Positions 6,432 to 59,581 of a stretch of 64,000 bases of DNA are shown in pieces; the first letter of the stretch is position 1; each line of letters starts with the position of its first letter. Below the pieces are notes generated by a model. The model had not been told where the DNA came from. It saw nothing but the letters and a program-made list of their open reading frames with translations, and ran no database searches. Position numbers and translations under genes: made by a program. The DNA lies in the NCBI GenBank assembly GCA_025617745.1, contig CM046858.1, forward strand, positions 51,033,925 to 51,097,924, in the 5' to 3' direction. This DNA is from Heliocidaris erythrogramma (lineage: Eukaryota > Echinodermata > Echinoidea > Camarodonta > Echinometridae).

Positions 6432-6975
6432 ACACCATCCCTTGTCTATATATCTTTTATGCTGATCCATGCAAACACTGTAATAACTGAATAACGTCTT
6501 CCTTAATGTTCTTTTCCATCATAATTATCTTTCTCTCTCCCTCTCTCTCTCTTTCCCTATTTCTTTATATCTATATTATATCCGTGATATTCAGCTCTAC
6601 GAAATACGGAGAGACACATGCACATGAAAAGTACTGTCAATCTCCTCTCTTTTTATCTTAAGAGTTTATTTCACCATGATGATGAAAAGGAAACCTATAA
6701 CCTACACCATCCCTTGTCTATATGTATCTTTTATGCTGATCCATACAAACACTATAATAACTGAATAACGTCTTCCTTAATGTTCTTTTCCATAATAAGT
6801 TTCTCTTTCTTTTCTCTCTCTCTCTCTGTCTTACTATGTATCTATATTATATCCGTGATATTGAGCTCTACGAAATACGGAGAGACACACGTACATGTAA
6901 AGTACTGTCTATCTCCTCTCTTTTTATCTTAAGATTTTATTTAACAATGATGATGAAGAGGAAATCTATAAGGAA
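6432..6975. repeat. Tandem duplication, period 272 bp
   Basis: The segment starting ACACCATCCCTTGTCTATAT at 6432 recurs from 6704 and is followed for its whole length: TTTTATGCTGATCC, AACGTCTTCCTTAATGTTC, a CT tract, GAAATACGGAGAGACACA, and ATGATGATGAA. The copies differ by scattered substitutions and by CT-tract length, so the duplication is not recent. No gene lies within it. Confidence 0.85.
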
Positions 6976-9649: not shown

Positions 9650-10164
9650 GAGTGCTTTGCTTCATCTTAGATGGAGAATTTTCAGAGATATGCTCGGTGA
9701 AATGACTGAAAATATATATATATCATAGTCCTATCATCATTAGGTCTATTCTAACCAAACCACAGGTAGACGCAAAATCTATTTTTGATCCAAGAAACCC
9801 CCTGGAAACAAGGTGAATGCATGTCTGCACAACATCCTCAAGGGGATTAAGCCATTGCAGACCAGTACTGGCCTGATATCCCAGTAGAAACTCATAGAGG
9901 TACTGTGACAGTGTACATGAATTGCTACAAGCTTTAATCACAAAGGACTGGATTCGTATTGATTGACAAAAGAAATGAATCGCCAAGGGTATGAATGATG
10001 TGGAACATCACAGAAATTTTAAAGGTCACCGGTAATGTATTGTTATGCAAATAAGGTGAAACCAAAAAAAGTATTATTATTCAAAGTTTTCATATAAACC
10101 GTCAATGTATATAAAAATAAACATACATCGAAATAAAGAAAAAATAATACTCTACAAACATCAA
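9650..10164. other. Noncoding, nothing recognised
   Basis: Contains a short TA run at about 9711-9723 and otherwise unremarkable AT-rich DNA. Confidence 0.5.
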
Positions 10165-19498: not shown

Positions 19499-20307
19499 GC
19501 GCAAGCGTTTCGTATTACGCGATCTACGGTCAACGCTTTAACAGATCTTGAAAACTTGAAGGGTATGTTCAAAAGGCGCTAAATCCTTATTTCATGATTT
19601 CTAATTAATCGGCGTCCTCAAATTTTACCTCTTTATTCGCGTTTTGTACCATTACTTCTACATGTTACCTAATTTAAGTTTACTGCGCACTGCGCATGCG
19701 TTTCGTATACCAGGGACCTCCATGGTATTACGCAATCTCTGGTCAATGCATTAGACCTGGGAAACTTAAAGTTTTGTTTTTAAAGGCTCTGAATCCTTTA
19801 GTTTTTCATGATTTATGAAAACTTGAAATTTAGTTTCAGAAGGCAATAAAGGTTTCCGTGATGATTTCTAGTTAACCGCTGCCCTTAGTTTTTACTTCCT
19901 TATTTGCGTTTTCCCACCAATAGTATAGGTTACCTTAGTTTACGTCACTGCGCATGCGTTTTATTTTGCGAATTTTATAATCAATGTATTACAGAACTCA
20001 GCATGCGTTTCGTATACCAGGGAACTTCATGATATTACGCAATCTCTGGTCAATGCATTAGACCTGGGAAATTTAAAGTTTTGTTTTTAAAGGCTCTGAA
20101 TCCTTTAGTTTTTCATGATTTATGAAAACTTGAAATTTAGTTTCAGAAGGCAATAAAGGTTTCCGTGATGATTTCTAGTTAACCGCTGCCCTTAGTTTTT
20201 ACTTCCTTATTTGCGTTTTCCCACCAATAGTATAGGTTACCTTAGTTTACGTCACTGCGCATGCGTTTTATTTTGCGAATTTTACAATCAATGTATTACA
20301 GAACTCA
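19499..20307. repeat. Tandem repeat, 307-bp period, plus an older diverged unit
   Basis: Units at 19694-20000 and 20001-20307 are almost identical and exactly 307 bp apart. Each contains CGTATACCAGGGA, TACGCAATCTCTGGTCAATG, AAGTTTTGTTTTTAAAGGCT and TTTCCGTGATGATTTCTAGT. A shorter, clearly diverged relative precedes them (about 19499-19693), sharing GTTTCGTAT, TACGCGATCTACGGTCAACG and ATGATTTCTAATTAA. TGCGCATGCG palindromes occur at 19691-19700, 19949-19958 and 20256-20265. No coding capacity recognised. Confidence 0.9.
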
Positions 20308-20505
20308 GCAACTGAAGGGAATATGCTTTAAGATGAGGGAAACTGCACCCTTCCCACCACCCCACCCCCTCCCCCTCCCCTCCTCCGTACTGACATTGCG
20401 CTTAAGCTTACAATGCTCAGATGTTACCTGTTAATATCATGTCAACTGCGTCTATACATAGTCACTGTATAGCTGATGTATGGATAGGAAATATATACAT
20501 CAGGC
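20308..20505. other. Noncoding with C-rich stretch
   Basis: C-rich segment at about 20347-20387; otherwise nothing. Confidence 0.4.
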
Positions 20506-22220: not shown

Positions 22221-22410
22221 ACAAAGGCCATTAAAATGCTTCGTTATTGATTTGAGTCAGAATATTATTTCTAGACGCCATTGTGATCTACCGTTTAAAA
22301 ATACGATGATTTGTAACAAAGGCCATTAAAATGCCTCGTTATTGATTTGAGTCAGAATATTATTTCTAGACGCCATTGTGATCTACCTTTTAAAAATAAG
22401 ATGATTTGTA
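22221..22410. repeat. Tandem duplication, period 95 bp
   Basis: Units 22221-22315 and 22316-22410 both begin ACAAAGGCCATTAAAATG and end ATGATTTGTA. Only a few substitutions separate them, so the event is fairly recent. Noncoding. Confidence 0.95.
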
Positions 22411-23951
22411 ACATTCTGATTAGGATAATGTCATATATTCATGTATAGCTTCAGTTTGTATTCATTGCGTTCATTTTGGGGACGTACATCAGCCTTGCCA
22501 ATCAAAAATATAAAATTGCATAAGCCTTTTTATTCCTATTTCACCAATATCATTATTTTAGATTAATATATATATAGATTCCAGTGTGGTTGAAATAATG
22601 AATGTTGTATTTTAAGAATATAAAGCAATATATCAGTGAGACAAATTATCCAGAAAGTATTAAAATTGTTGATAACTTTATTAAATGCCCATCCTAAAAC
22701 GTTTATCTTAATAAATGCTTCTTTAACAGCTTGACGACACTTTTATCAGGATACCGTTGTTTGTTGGGTTTTTTCAGAATTTGAATTAAGTAAGCTTAAT
22801 CAATTTGGAATGTGGTTCGTGCACGTGATGTCAACCAAGTCCAACCTTCCTTCAGCTGATAAAGATACAGAATACATGCATGCTGCGATCGCATGATCAG
22901 TAGCCGAGTTTGTACCAGACATGTTCAGTGAACCGACATTAATCAAGGGGACTACTTTTTTATGAAGCCTATACTGCCATTTCAAGGGTGCGAAAACAGA
23001 CAAATTAGGTAAATAGTCGTGCGAAAAATCCTCCTATCTGACGGCTGATAGCACTCATTATCCTAGACTTCATCCTAACCATCGATCTCTACCAGTGGAT
23101 AAAGCAACGCCCTGCCTGTAGGCCTACGTTTGATGCGACCGGTCGCCATGTTTGGGCTCTTAGAAAAACACCGCCGCTGTACTGTTTCATTACAATTTTA
23201 TGCATTTTTAGCAGTGGCGTAATGAGCCCAAAAATTTGAGGGGGCTGAACATGGCATACGCGACACAATTTCTGAATACTAGCAAGCAAGCGAAGCGAGC
23301 GAGCAAAAAAAAATCGACCTTTTTAATAGATCCTTATACATTCTAAAGACGATTTAATGTAACAATCAGTTTAATGTATTTTCAAGATAAAAAATCAAAT
23401 CACGTATCTTTCGCATGGGGAGTACACTGGAATCGTACACAGCACACGATGTCCCATGTATTGTATTTGAGTGTAGGGCTCCTAATTTTGGTTGCGCGGC
23501 CAGCCACATCAACTCAACTGCTCGCATAGACATGATAGAGCCGTGCGTACGATGCTGTATCCAGGTGTTAGAGATCGATGATCCTAACACATTATACCGT
23601 CTAGCCTTCAAGCATGACGACGGAATTAAGGTTATTCAGTGATTCCGTCTTCGGGTTATTCAATGATCCCGTCTTTGATAATACAGCCGATTGGCATCAC
23701 TCATGATACTTTGATAGCTGGTGAACTGGGCAACTGTGAAAAAGAAGAAGTAAAGTGTATTTCTTTGCCAAAGTACGAGATCTTACAGCCATCTTAAGTT
23801 GCGCGACTTTTTTTCATAAAAAGGGAAAACTATGCCCTCGTTCTTTCCAGCAGCTGCACTTCTGTAATGCTTTTTGTTGCAATTCAGCACTTTTTAAGGG
23901 TTTTAACCTTCTCTTCTTTTAAGAACCTCAAGAGAGTTCTCCGATAGTATG
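22411..23951. other. Noncoding, with an unassigned GC-richer patch
   Basis: CAGTGGCGTAATGAGCCC at about 23213 looks like a solitary hAT-like end, followed by the GCGAAGCGAGCGAGC wording (about 23290) often seen in marine invertebrate repeats. The patch 23400-23645 is more GC-rich and open on both strands (75 codons + at 23415-23642, 81 codons - at 23366-23611). Neither product is recognisable, so I do not call a gene. Confidence 0.35.
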
Positions 23952-38139: not shown

Positions 38140-39776
38140 ATAGGGCCAGTGAGCAGTAAAACTAAAGACACGATCAGGCTATATACTCCTCATGGTCTTT
38201 TTTAGTCCATGGACACTAAAGACAGCGATAATGAGAAAACAGAGCGAAGTATTCTTGATATATTTATATACGACTTCTGAAAGTTTTTTGAACTTTAAAT
38301 TAACAAACTGCCTTACGACATGGCATGAGTTACAAGAAGAGAGCAGAATGTAATTTAGATTCTGATCTGCAGATTAAAATCATTTTGATCTGCTCATAAT
38401 AGTTTGTATACCCCTCGTGGGCTGTCGGCCTAGTGAACCTTTTTGTAAATGTCGGTCTCGTGGGCTGCTTGAACATTGCTTCATTGTGCTAACAAATAAA
38501 TAAATGAATTGCAAATATATTCAAACTGTCCAAAAATATCATGCGATGAGAAAAATATGATGAAAAGTTCAAGTTTACGGCATTGACAAGCACACAACAC
38601 CTAAGTCGACGTTTATGAAAACACTTGTCATAATGGCCTTCAATTCATAAATCAACTATTGTCTGTCACTGTCTCGCATATTGTCACGCTAACCCACCCC
38701 TATGTTTGTAATAGACAGCGACCATTCTATCTACTACACACATGTAGGGAAACTCTAGAAATAAAAACAATCAAACAAAACTTTTCGTTGTGGGAAAGAA
38801 ATGCCAATATCAGAATAGAGAAGAAGTTGAAAGTGCACCGACACAGTTTAAATTTTAAGTTTTCCTTGATCGTAAAAGCATTTGCATTAATTCGTAGAAT
38901 ATTCCAGATTGAACATTCTAATTCAAACCCCAAATTCTTAAAACATTTAAATTTCAGGCAAAATACTTCCTTTCCTTTTTAAGTTTGTTTCGTAATTTTA
39001 TTTTTTTGTTCTTTTTAATTTCATATCTCCATAATTATACGAGAAGTTAATTACTGCATAATCTTTTTTACCATTATTATTACGCAGACTTGTGGAGATA
39101 TCTACAGTATATGTCATAAAACTCCATCACTCATAAATTCCTTGGCCAAAACTCTAGACAAAAACTTCCTTTCAACTTGACGAGAGTTATTTGCTCATCC
39201 CTCGAGACCTAATCCAAAAATGAAGTTTAAAGACAATGAAGTTAGTGTCTCAATGCTTTCATGTCTGTGTACTCTATAACCTTTTAGTTTCAGGCGTCAA
39301 CCGAACAAAAAAATGCTAGTTTTGAGATTTATTTTTTGTTTACAAAATCATTTTGTTTAAAGCGACAGACAGCTTGACTGGAGATTCATCAATCTCTAAG
39401 GTCAGACGCTGGGGGACTATCTTTAGTTTCAGGTCTATTAAGGGAATCAGGACATAACATCCCCTTCATGCCGTCGTTGGTAGGTTTTGACAGGGTGTCG
39501 GAGGGGTACGGCTTTTTTTCCATCCATGGATAAAAATGGTATAGATATAAATCAATATGGCGACATGTTTACCAACTGGCTCTTGATGCAGACCACCGTA
39601 ATACCAAAAAGGATCCTTATGGGTTAAAAAAAGGCCAAATATTTCTCTAAATTAATGAGGTTTCTAGTTATTTATATCACATGTTTTATGCAAACTTGGA
39701 AATTTGATGATTGTTAAAAGAGAACAGATTCAACCTTAAAATTTCGAAGTCTTTCTGGGGTATATCTTTTTATATG
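38140..39776. other. Noncoding; possible LINE-type 3' tail
   Basis: At about 38480-38512, AACAAATAAATAAATGAATT follows a GC-richer stretch (CCTCGTGGGCTGTCGGCC...CTCGTGGGCTGCTTG). This could be the 3' end and tail of a LINE fragment. No reverse transcriptase wording precedes it. The rest is unremarkable. Confidence 0.35.
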
Positions 39777-39778
39777 TA

Positions 39779-40593
39779 CACTAAAGGAAAAAAGAAACTT
39801 ATAAAAGTTCAAGAGATCACCAAATTAAATTCTCTGCATGGAAATGTACCAAATTTGGATATAATGTTGATTCAATGCATGGCTTTAAATGACAGTCAAT
39901 AACAAAAAGTTTTCTTCAATGCCACAAAAGAAATGTGCACTGAAACAAAGGACTCTCTAATCCCAAAGTCACAAAGACAAACTGCAGCCTTGTACACCAT
40001 ATGCATGTCAATGAATGAAACAAAAGAATTTCAAAAGGGATTTGCAAGTTCATATCCAAACAGATTAATAGCCAGTATGTCCACCTCTAGCTTGCTGGCA
40101 AGCTGTACACCGTCTTCGCATGCTTCCGATCAGATTCGCGATGGTAGCCTGGGGAACATTGTTCCATTCCTCTTGCAGTGCTGCAATGAGCGTCTCCCTA
40201 TTGATGGGTTGATTGTCACGCCTTGACACACGTCGACCAAGCTCTTCCCAGAGATGTTCAATTGGGGAAAGGTCTGGTGAACGGGCGAACCATGGCAGAA
40301 CATCAATATCCTCTTGCTCGAGGGGTGCAAATCCCTTTTGAAATTCTTTTGTTTCATTCATTGACATGCATATGGTGTACAAGACTGCAGTTTATCTTTG
40401 TGACTTTGGGATTAGAGAGTCCTTTGTTTCAGTGCACATTTCTTTTGTGGCATTGAAGAAAACTTTTTGTTATTGACTGTCATTTAAAGCCATGCATTGA
40501 ATCAACATTATATCCAAATTTGGTACATTTCCATGCAGAGAATTTAATTTGGTGATCTCTTGAACTTTTATAAGTTTCTTTTTTCCTTTAGTG
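39779..40593 (-). mobile_element. Internally deleted Tc1/mariner transposon with 268-bp inverted repeats
   Basis: The element begins CACTAAAGGAAAAAAGAAAC and ends with its inverse, flanked by TA on both sides (39777-39778 and 40594-40595). Arms 39779-40046 and 40326-40593 are each 268 bp and differ at only a few positions. The 279-bp centre holds, on the minus strand, the last ~85 residues of a Tc1-type transposase. Reading in from the right arm brings the transposase tail directly behind repeat sequence, so the N-terminal DNA-binding domain and the first two catalytic Asp residues are gone. The copy cannot transpose by itself, but it keeps both ends and could be moved in trans. Confidence 0.9.
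40065..40325 (-). pseudogene. Tc1/mariner transposase C-terminal fragment
   Basis: The minus-strand frame reads IDVLPWFARSPDLSPIEHLW, then a WEELGRRVSRR segment, LIAALQEEWNNVP and a final RGGHTGY before the stop. This is the conserved end of Tc1-family transposases (DDE superfamily, cut-and-paste). The PDLSPIEHLW block carries the third catalytic acid (Glu). About 250 upstream residues are missing. The open frame continues through the right inverted repeat to an ATG at 40382, but that part is repeat sequence, not transposase. Flanked by the 268-bp arms described for the element. Confidence 0.9.
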
Positions 40594-40595
40594 TA

Positions 40596-43500
40596 TATAC
40601 AAATTCAACCTTAATGGAATAATTCTTTAAAAACTGTTCAATATACCTTACGTTTCGGTCATCACTATCGTCTGTACTTGATTTCTCTTCATGATCAATC
40701 CCTTTAAAACTATGTATCCCGATTTTTAAATAATTTCATTCAGATAATTCTCTTTATGTGTAAGAGTTTAGAAAAAAATTAACAACACAGATTGCATGAA
40801 GTATTTTATTAAATAACGGATACTTTCCCAATCCCTAACCAGTGAGCTTCGTGGGATTTAGACAAGCCATCTACTTGGTTGTAGAACCAATGGTCCATAG
40901 GCACAGATTGGACTTAGGCCTACGTTAGGCCTACTTTAGTATTCATATTCGTCCAGGCCATCATTATGTTTCTCATATTTCACCCCTCCTGTCCCGAGAT
41001 AATGGATGTTTTCTCTCCTGAGGTTACGAAAGGGGATAATTTGTCCAGACTCGTGCCCTGAATCATCCAACATCTTCACTCATCACGTGACATCATGCAT
41101 GACCTCCGTTGATTCATCGCGCTGATTGGATGACAGAGTATCACGTGACAACAAACAGAACATTCATGGCTTCATCCAGCTGGCTGCTGTACTTGTTATT
41201 TTATTTAGTACATCAGTGTTTGAAATGTTTTCCATCGACTTTTCTTGTAATGAATTCAGTTCAGTTCAATTCCATGCACAATAAAGTAAGTGAGAAATGT
41301 ACCGACAGAGCAGTATATGAGGCTTACAAAATATGGACAGAAGGGAATAAGACAAAAACATGTAGGTACATGTATACAATAGTTGACAAATCACAATATT
41401 TATGTTTTTTAGAAAACTCATGAAAACGGGCAGGAGTGGGGTTGAATGATTGAAGTTGGGTAACATTTTAGTTCCCTCAACCCTTGTAAACAAACCCCCC
41501 CCCCCCAAAAAAAAAAACAACAAAAAAACAAAAACAAAACCAAAACAAAACAAACAAACAAAACAAACGACATTCAGAATATAATGTCGTATTCATACAT
41601 ACAATATATCATTTGGCCATTAATATTAGGTCGTCGATCAGGAAAGTCTTATGAAGAAATTGGCAAAGAACAACAAAGAATTGTTCACTTCTTTAATCAC
41701 CAAGATCACATTACCGTTTGAAATGAATAAGTGAATAAATGAATGAATTAATAAATCAATAAATCGATAATAGATAAATAGTAAATGAATAAATGACAAA
41801 TGAATTCATTGATGAGTAAAGTGAATAAATGAAGAAGTAAATATGAAAGATAAAACTGAAAAACAAAATTAAATTTAAAAGAGATTATTTTCATTCACGC
41901 TTCATGGACAAAATACAAATGATAGACATATTCATGGATATTAGTAATTGTTATCATTGGTATTTAGTTACAATGCAGTTCTGCCAGATCGATCGTTGCC
42001 AAATTAAAATCAGCTATTTCATGTTTCGTAAACAATATATTGATATTATAAAGAACAATAAAGTATGCGGTTGGCACTCAAGGCCAATTTCCCGCTCGCT
42101 CTCTCTCTCTCTTGAATTATTTTGCCTCGTGACATGAGTTATTACAAACGGGGAAAGTTTAGAGGTTCAAATCTAAAACTAAGGATTGGGGTTAGTGTCA
42201 ACGTAAAGGAAAAGAAATATAATTACTTTCAACAACATCAGTTTAGAGCAAGTCTAGTCATATTAAAGGCCTACACAGCTAATGTTCTCACCATTTTAGA
42301 TGTTTCCCCTTTATGGCACAGAAGTATATATAATCATGTTAATTATATTAGTCTATTTCACTGCATTCCATGGAGGGTATATACAGACCCTGTCGTCATT
42401 CATGATGATTGAGGTCGGAGCCTGAACGGATATTACGACAAATGATTTTATTGATTGGTTAAATACCTGTGGGTCTGGGACCATTATTGTCTAGTTAGGT
42501 GAATCATTTACGTCCAGGGTACGGTAAAACCCATGACACAACTGCAGGTCATAAACCTTACTTGTACGGTTCAAACTGTTAGAACGTGATCAGACGGCTT
42601 TATGTTATTAACCTAGACATTTTCTATAAATGTAGGCTGAGCAATTTCCTGAAATTTTATAAAAAAGAAAAGTCTTTGATCAGAACCCGGAAAACATTAA
42701 TGGTTGAATACAATATGCGCTTTTGTTCAAGGCGACTGGCTGGAGTGCTTCCAAGTTGAAGGGAGAGGGTGTTTGGTATATAGATATGGAATGACAATGG
42801 AATCCTATGAATTATAAGTAAATATCTTAGATATAATAAACACTATACTAAATTTGCTGTTATTTACTATCATCATCAAAATTCATAATGTATTCATGCA
42901 TGGGATTAAAGTTAACGAGTGAAAAGGCTCAGTCTTGGACGTAAACCATCTATCTTGAATTTGAATTCTTAGAATTAAAGACAATTAGTCAACATAAACG
43001 AGGCGTATTTTCCTTGAATGATTTTTAAGGAAGCTTGCTGTTAAGAATATCAATCAATGAGTGAAACAATGATAAAAAACAGGCTATTTATGAACAACAG
43101 CAGCTCGTCAAAGACGTAAACAAAGGCCATGTATTCGTTGGTATCCTCTCAAATTGTGGAATTGACCAATGCTTGTGACCGAGCACCTTGGGCATATCGG
43201 GAAACATAACGAACAATATAATTTTTTAATCAAGAACAATATTTTCCATCGTAGGATCATTGTGATGTACCTTAAAAAGTTCTTATATATTTAATAACAA
43301 GGGTACTCATATGCAATGATGTCGATTCCCTAAAATAAGACAGGTAACAGGTTGTAGTTAGTAGGTCAACGACCTAACCTTTTGTTAATCTTAATACTTG
43401 TCAACCTAAACAACCCCTTTTTACATGTTTGATGATAATTATGAGATTAGTGTAAAACTGAGTTGTATCCAATCTGTCATGCCTATTGATAATGCTTGAA

Positions 43501-57336: not shown

Positions 57337-59419
57337 ACATATGGGCAATTCCATGAAAAATGTTCACTTTAGTAAAAAAATGAAGTTTGCAATTGCACTT
57401 AAACTCTCAAATATTCTTGAAAAGTAATGTATAAATGTTCATTTTCCAATAGACAAATCATTAAACTGACAAATTTTCGTATTTTTTTCCACCAGTGAAA
57501 ATCTAATATGATGTATCGCAATAACACAAAAATGTGGCTATTTTTGAAGAGTTTATTCTTCCTGTCTCTAATGAAGGCCTAAAATCTACTGGAGGTCTCC
57601 TTCAACTTTTAAACAGTAGTTCAGTGTACATATCAACAGAAAATCACAATGAATGTTTATATCATTCATCAATTTTCGAGGCATTGATCCTCAAAATTGT
57701 GTGATTTCTTTATCATTAGAAGTGTCATGTCCGTTACGTTTTTCACTTAAAGTTTTCATAGCCAACAGGAAATTTGTATTTGGTTACTGTAAATTCAGTT
57801 TCTATGTTAGAACTAAATCCCCTTACATGTGTAGCAACCATTTTTCCTTACCACTGTCAGTTTTCAAGCAAATGGCGTAACGGACATGACACTTTGCGTA
57901 ACGGACATGACACTTTATATACGACAAGTGGCAGAAACCACATTGTGGGCTCCATTTAATAGATTGATTATTATTTTCAATTGCTTGAGGATAGTGGGAT
58001 GTTTCTAGATACTAGTGACTCATAAATATAAATCTGCTTGTTATATTTAAGACACAACAACAAGCAGATTTTCCAGTTTACCCATGGAAGTCTGTAGATT
58101 TCAGATGATCTTGCTAGCCCTGTTATGTAATCCCATTCCAACATCTTGATCATGATTGATGACCAACATGCAGCAGCAGGTATGTCCCTGTTTATTTACA
58201 TAGTGGATTACTGAAGCCAAGACAATGCAGTTCCACTATTGGCCATCTCCCTAGCACTTTTCCATGATAACTTAGACCTCATTTCATAATGACACTGGTT
58301 TTGTGGAACTGCTTTAGTGCATGTTGCAGATACATGTAGTTAACTTTCTTTCTTTAAAACTGATGTGAATCATTCAGGACATTTTCATGATATGTTCAAA
58401 CTTTTGATCAGGTCTGGTTCATTAAGTTTTCTTTGCCTCAAAGCTTGAGACGTGCTCTACTTTGTTGTATGTTGTTGTGGTACTCTAAGCATTATATTCC
58501 ATGCATTGTAGTATAGTTGTTAGATCACTCAAACCTGCAAAAAAGAACTTAGATGTGTTACTATTTAACATTTGGTAGTAGTACTGAGCTGTTAGTTTTG
58601 TCTTTTTTATGCCAAATGTTTTTTTGAAAGAAAGAAGTGAAGATATGGTTCACTTCACAAGGGTGTCATGTCCGTTACGCTAGCATATTAATACTATCTG
58701 AGAAATATTAGCCTATAAAGGAGAAAACACCATAGCATCAACTAATAATTTGTTCTGTTTTGGTATGGAGGGTAGTATTATAAACTAAAATGTATCATAA
58801 ATTGTAGCTAGCTGGTGCAGAAGCAAGTTTGCTTTATTTTTTATATCTTGTGTAAACATTGAAAACCAACCCTTCTAAAATTACAGAAATATATGAGATA
58901 GTACAGAATACCAGTTATGATGTGTGTCCCTATCTTTCAACCTTACTATATGAACAATAAAATATCTGCCATATCTCGTAATAAAACAAATATGTCCGCT
59001 CACAAAAAGTGGACAAAACTGTCATGTCCGTTACGCTACATTCTGAGCTATAAAAAAAGAATGCAATGTAAAACTAATCTCAAACATGAATTTATGATTA
59101 CAGCATGACTTTAAGTTTTAATTAATACCCAAACCAGGTTCATTCTATCCCAAAACTCACAGGAATTTTCATAATAAAAAGTAGGTTAAAAAGCCTTGTC
59201 CATTTTGTGTCATGTCCGTTACGCTCACAACGAGTGCATTTTCTCCACAACCGTTCAATAAAATGATGTGAAATTTCATGAGTATATCCCTGATAGTCAA
59301 ATGTGTGTGATAAACTCAATAAAAATTGTTTGGAGACTGCCAATTCTATTGTGTGATGTTTTGAATTACAAAAAAACTGTCTGAATGTCATGTCCGTTAC
59401 GCTGGAATTGACCATATGT
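57337..59419. mobile_element. Unclassified 2.1-kb element with seven copies of a 17-bp motif
   Basis: Ends are ACATATGGGCAATTCCA (57337-57353) and its inverse with one mismatch (59403-59419). Inside, TGTCATGTCCGTTACGC or its reverse complement occurs at 57724 (last base differs), 57875 (-), 57896 (-, a 21-bp tandem with the previous one), 58664, 59020, 59208 and 59386. The last copy abuts the right terminal repeat. Motif repetition next to a terminus resembles sub-terminal transposase-binding repeats. No transposase or other protein domain is seen in any frame. A TA (CA-TA-TGG) or other duplication cannot be settled. Confidence 0.65.
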
Positions 59420-59581
59420 GAACCACCCTTTTGAATAACATACAGGTGTAGGGTTCACCAGCAAGGTGTAATTAGCAATTTAACTGGTCAAGATAAACCA
59501 ACCATTTCCTGAATTAGTATACACCGGTAATTGTTTATATAACTTAACCTACACCTTGGTTACTAGGCCTATATTTATACT
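59420..59581. other. Noncoding spacer
   Basis: Short AT-rich spacer between two elements. Confidence 0.4.

Follow-up and report, generated by a model that had tools for sequence, protein, structure and literature searches.

A young non-autonomous DNA transposon carrying seven copies of a 17-bp motif in the genome of Heliocidaris erythrogramma

The window analysed here is a stretch of 64,000 nucleotides from Heliocidaris erythrogramma (C6:51033925-51097924); the genome searched comprises 1.06 Gb in 26 contigs. The window contains a non-autonomous element of 2,071 bp on the plus strand (57343..59413), whose boundaries were taken from its genomic copies. It is enclosed by a 4-bp target-site duplication (TSD) with the sequence ATAT (57339..57342 on the left, 59414..59417 on the right). 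The left terminal inverted repeat (TIR) GGGCAATTCC (57343..57352, plus strand) marks the boundary in 22 parsed copies, is the same in relatives, and opens a longer left terminal box GGGCAATTCCATGAAAAATGTTCACT (57343..57368, plus strand). The right TIR (59404..59413, minus strand) reads GGAATTGACC on the plus strand and GGTCAATTCC in the inward direction. The original prediction had assigned to the block a terminal inverted repeat of 17 bp with one mismatch. This inverted match (57337-57353 / 59403-59419) is real, but the true TIR is imperfect and only 10 bp long (GGGCAATTCC / GGTCAATTCC). The match is composed of the 10-bp TIR, the 4-bp duplication, two chance-matching flanking bases and one inner base; it reaches 17 bp because ATAT is self-reverse-complementary, is flanked by AC...GT and is accompanied by an extra inner match. 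Taken alone it is unremarkable, since further 16-of-17 inverted pairs at distances of 300-3000 bp exist in the same window (for example at 10100, 30970, 43789, 46406 and 58873). A Pfam scan of three of the six frames of the 2.1-kb element, with stops given as X, yielded nothing above cut-off.

Several other features were observed in the window. At 2229-2823, another word (GGGGTAGTTGTCCTAG / CTAGGACAACTACCCC) forms inverted and tandem arrays, possibly belonging to another element with internal sites. Two-copy tandem duplications are located at 19694-20310 (307 bp, 98%), 6432-6971 (271 bp, 89%) and 22221-22413 (95 bp, 96%). A stop-to-stop frame of 745 codons at 28325-30559 matches Ig V-set and I-set domains and probably encodes a membrane receptor. 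A near-perfect inverted repeat with 278-bp arms (98.6%) occupies 39769-40603. An insertion in one genomic copy of the element, L059, has the end sequence of this hairpin and lies between two TA; the repeat at 39769-40603 is therefore probably mobile. Beside the element, TTTAAACC-rich inverted repeats at 59474-59820 may represent a separate small transposon.

Within the element, the 17-bp motif occurs seven times. Copy 1 (57723..57739, plus strand) contains one mismatch. Copies 2 (57875..57891) and 3 (57896..57912), both on the minus strand, are the units of an exact 21-bp tandem. The remaining copies 4 (58664..58680), 5 (59020..59036), 6 (59208..59224) and 7 (59386..59402) are all on the plus strand, and copy 7 is separated from the right TIR by 1 bp, a layout that is also found in diverged relatives. 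The coordinates thus agree with the predicted arrangement of two reverse copies as a tandem on the left and four copies of common orientation on the right. The claim that seven occurrences exceed chance was likewise borne out: in 100 dinucleotide shuffles the motif was found 0.13 times on average and at most twice. The prediction of sub-terminal repeats is to be corrected in that the copies are distributed over the element, with one flush with the right TIR and none with the left TIR. The element has 23 CpGs, 14 of which lie inside motifs. A CpG deficit caused by decay was considered and rejected, as the majority sequence of the family itself has only 26 CpGs, 14 of them in motifs. A text search of the literature retrieved no entry for the motif strings, and the combination of GGGCAATTCC with "transpos" gave one match only, on Agrobacterium AmpC. 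A reading of the motif as a bacterial or viral site was also discarded: the 16-mer occurs once each in 36 stretches of genome_contigs and in 3 of viral_contigs, which was taken as chance.

The proposal that many genomic copies with common boundaries exist was examined by motif and end searches. Allowing for up to two mismatches, the motif has 2,472 matches in the genome (1,206 + 1,266), compared to 89 (39 + 50) for the reversed control. Among the matches listed for contig 1, 17 groups of motif places repeat one and the same order, and a single place stands alone. Typically, the 21-bp tandem is followed by further copies at distances of about 770, 355, 190-210 and 170-180 bp; in some groups on contig 1 a copy is missing or insertions widen the spacing, and an additional motif at a spacing of 23 bp marks a subfamily. 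Nineteen regions were fetched; the element is present in 18 of them, which align at 95-99.7% per piece with gaps counted, and these alignments end at window positions 57337-57343 and 59413-59425, the left end of L050 being outside the fetched stretch. L050, L051, L059 and L061 carry insertions, and the 19th region, L064, is a diverged relative. A search with the left 380 bp gave 262 first-look candidates; among the best 40, which were scored, 19 (window included) match all 380 bases with the top score. The right 191 bp gave 385 first-look candidates, of which again the best 40 were scored. The predicted family of copies with common boundaries was therefore recovered. On contig 1, which makes up 7.4% of the genome, 17 right ends conform exactly to the family type; extrapolation therefore suggests a copy number of roughly 230 genome-wide. 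For the 17 parsed copies of less than 2,250 bp, substitutions relative to the majority sequence amount to 0.1-1.5%, with indels additional, and the window copy differs by 2 substitutions in 2,067 positions. The amplification burst is therefore young.

The ends were parsed at 24 loci including the window; this was successful for 22 of them, the exceptions being L050 and L077. All 22 copies start with GGGCAATTCC, in L065 and L078 with variant bases, and end with GGAATTGACC. The target duplication sought for this family is 4 bp long: it is exact in 21 of the 22 copies, and in L051 it differs at one base. The exact duplications are AT-rich, with A in first position in 16/21 and T in last position in 18/21 cases. 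The preceding base is a C in 11/21 and the following base a G in 11/21. The L071 copy is located at the 3' end of a reverse-transcriptase frame. When its flanks were joined and used as a query, all 253 bases were matched at each of the 40 places scored (the best 40 of 275), 16 of them with the top score. These matches are empty paralogous sites.

A longer relative with a transposase, as anticipated by the original prediction, was identified by manual pairing of left and right ends on contigs 1 to 6 among the matches listed. This element, L081 (C2:52593700-52598600, minus strand), is 4,653 bp long, has the same TIRs and the TSD TTAT on both sides, and contains damaged remnants of a transposase gene. 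Its first 874 bp are 95% and its last 1,147 bp 96% identical to the window element; the first 45 bases are shared exactly, as are nearly all of the last 45, and the motif arrays are common to both. L081 matches 57343-58260 and 58282-59413, such that the interval 58260..58282 marks the point where the window element has no counterpart to about 2.6 kb of L081. Apart from an inverted 57-bp copy of the motif-bearing stretch 59021-59077, nothing in this middle part corresponds to the window element. Three reading frames of the middle part each hold a protein-coding remnant (165, 399 and 176 residues); the 399-residue frame ends in a stop, after which the continuation still resembles relatives. No fewer than two frame changes and an in-frame stop were counted in its coding region, and L081 is probably inactive; introns could account for some of the frame changes. 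The window element would most simply be an internal-deletion derivative of an L081-like parent, a direction of change that is based on one longer copy with flanks of 95-96% identity. Other candidates for longer or autonomous forms were dismissed. The extra DNA in L051, L059 and L061 looks like other inserted elements; L077, L078, L079 and L080 are either unremarkable copies or carry a deletion or additional insertions, L080 (6.7 kb) being a 2.1-kb element interrupted by other DNA. In the 5 kb of L082 up to another right end, neither a left TIR nor a long frame was found.

The 399-residue piece of L081 has 103 matches in the genome, itself included. Some belong to a duplicated region on contigs 4 and 17 with 48-86% identity, in pieces and with stops. 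These copies possess the left TIR and box as in L081; a right TIR was not found in the DNA fetched. The direct transposase was not found in intact form, L081 being split over three frames and the copies on contigs 4 and 17 containing stops. Other relatives have about 27-60% identity, and several of them have open frames of 652-898 residues. Across nine protein pieces, two Asp residues, one Glu and an HxKGxxD block are invariant. Judged by these conserved acidic residues, the enzyme may be a transposase of the DDD/E, RNase-H type. Pfam and NCBIfam gave no match above cut-off; PF07592, a DDE transposase domain, matched one relative below cut-off with an E-value of 0.014. PDB searches including a profile yielded nothing meaningful, PHROGs gave three weak matches only, and a single-protein query of viral contigs found no transposase. 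L091, L092 and L093 are about 99% alike and represent another transposase relative with a frame of 764 residues (652 in L093); large direct repeats follow downstream of these frames, and the family has perhaps been active recently. A TIR with a 4-bp TSD was not detected around L086, L098, L099 and L100 in the DNA fetched, which was short on some sides.

Among the diverged relatives, L064 (825 bp, TSD TAAT), L075 (979 bp, TSD ATCT) and an element of about 1 kb across L069/L070 (TSD TCAT), which contains an array of 23-bp motif units, share a common plan. On the left, they have the box GGGCAATTCC....AAAATGTTC (AGAATGTTC in L070); on the right, the motif is followed by one base and a TIR ending in TGCCC, the last motif being much decayed in L069. 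L081, L085, L073, L064, L074, L075, L076 and L070 all carry a discernible box GGGCAATTCCATGAAAAATGTTCACT at their left ends, and L087 carries a weaker one. For the left ends L073, L074 and L076, no matching right TIR was found at the stringency used. The motif-N-TIR pattern with at most one mismatch has 285 matches in the genome and none in the control; the 100 matches listed belong mostly to the 2.1-kb family, and 12 exact ones are of other types. The motif is probably a transposase-binding site, because it lies flush with the right TIR and has been retained in diverged families. Its conservation after insertion cannot be cited as proof of selection: among inserted copies, 5 of 1,812 motif cells are changed versus 146 of 32,946 cells elsewhere, which shows no clear excess of conservation in the motif.

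With respect to its kind the element is ordinary: it is a non-autonomous DNA transposon for which a longer relative exists. PIF/Harbinger elements generate a 3-bp TWA duplication; the GGGCA terminus found here resembles theirs, and they are ruled out by the 4-bp duplications. hAT elements are characterized by duplications of 5-8 bp and hAT domains; the TSD is 4 bp here, and Pfam gave no hAT match in 11 protein pieces. In CACTA (En/Spm) and hAT (Ac) elements, a transposon-encoded protein binds several short sites in both orientations, and the mode of action of the present motif array may be analogous to that of such subterminal repeats. In contrast to CACTA elements, however, the family has no CACTA termini and a 4-bp TSD, and the 11 pieces gave no Pfam CACTA match. 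Sola3 duplicates TTAA. The same target duplication is given for Kolobok and piggyBac (PMC9587614); TTAA does not occur among the 21 exact TSDs, and all three groups were rejected. For Ginger an integrase-like rve transposase is expected, and no rve match was obtained in the 11 protein pieces; families with TA or 8-bp duplications do not fit a 4-bp TSD.

Lists of DNA-transposon superfamilies served for comparison (PMC10294476, PMC9587614), and Repbase places non-autonomous elements by TSD length and terminal positions 1-11 (PMC4455052). Among published groups, Sola2 comes nearest with respect to TSD and protein size and is a candidate affiliation. Sola2 has AT-rich 4-bp duplications of the form AWWT (ATAT, AAAT, ATTT) and short TIRs, which in amoeba families measure 12, 13 or 21 bp, and a transposase of 888 residues (PMC3627910). 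Compared to this description, the present family is similar in its AT-rich 4-bp TSD (AWWT in 9/21, T as fourth base in 18/21) and in its open frames of up to 898 residues, but differs in that the TIR is 10 bp long and 12/21 TSDs are not AWWT. None of the Pfam matches among the 11 protein pieces scanned bears the name Sola. The 399-residue piece of L081 resembles DUF7869 (PF25273) over the second conserved Asp (E-value 0.0017), although the 18.4 bits of this match are under the cut-off of 26 bits. Eight other relatives scanned, L091 and L093 being left out, had no DUF7869 match, and a text search found no mention of DUF7869 in the literature. Above cut-off, DUF7869 occurs at 54 places in the genome, among them C15:22825105, and in none of 14 control genomes; none of the 54 coincides with the places listed for the L081-type transposase. 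We consider it doubtful that the family constitutes a DDD-type lineage outside the catalogued superfamilies, distinguished by a transposase that uses a 17-bp site repeated at fixed positions over the whole element, and by asymmetric ends, of which the right one alone has the site flush with the TIR and the left one has another, conserved box.

The block at 57343..59413 is best explained as a young non-autonomous cut-and-paste DNA transposon, a reading to which we assign a probability of about 0.9 and in which the deletion origin and the binding of the motif are the parts that we infer. The element is mobile, has fixed ends and generates a 4-bp duplication. The window element would have arisen by an internal deletion in an L081-like parent, and its transposase would be supplied in trans. 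This enzyme would recognise the TIRs along with the 17-bp motif, and the motif array may serve to bring the element ends together; the element would then be cut out and inserted at AT-rich sites opened with a 4-bp stagger. Considering the window sequence alone, one could also think of a cluster of host regulatory sites, since homotypic clusters of enhancer sites exist, or of an ordinary repeat remnant, in both cases without mobility. This explanation is refuted by copies that share their ends but not their flanks, by the 4-bp duplications and by the empty paralogous sites, and we attach practically no weight to it.

Two further alternatives accept mobility. The motif could be the site of a host factor, Myb-like (TAACGG) or other, that mediates transcription control or silencing. 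TAACGG, which we take to be the Myb consensus, is present in every motif copy, for six of the seven the distance to either end exceeds 180 bp, and the accumulation of CpGs in the motifs would also suit a host-factor site. This assignment is nevertheless improbable, given that the motif at 1 bp from the right TIR recurs in the diverged L064, L075 and L082, and that another relative carries its array of 23-bp motif units between matching ends. Alternatively, the 2.1-kb element could be moved by an intact transposase of a different family, with L081 being merely an old relative. The L081-type copies are broken whereas the 2.1-kb copies are very young, and relatives with long open frames do exist in the genome; yet it is L081 that shares the terminal 45-base stretches and the motif arrays with the element, and L086 and L091-L093, which have long open frames, lack such a TIR within the DNA fetched. 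We thus regard a different enzyme source as unlikely.

In the reading as a non-autonomous cut-and-paste transposon, the locus belongs to a clean and very young family whose ends and TSD are defined and for which empty sites as well as a longer relative have been found. Its recent burst, with the direct enzyme source apparently broken in the only assembly searched, raises the question of who supplies the transposase in trans. The 17-bp word makes this unnamed transposase family testable, namely by its binding to one defined site.
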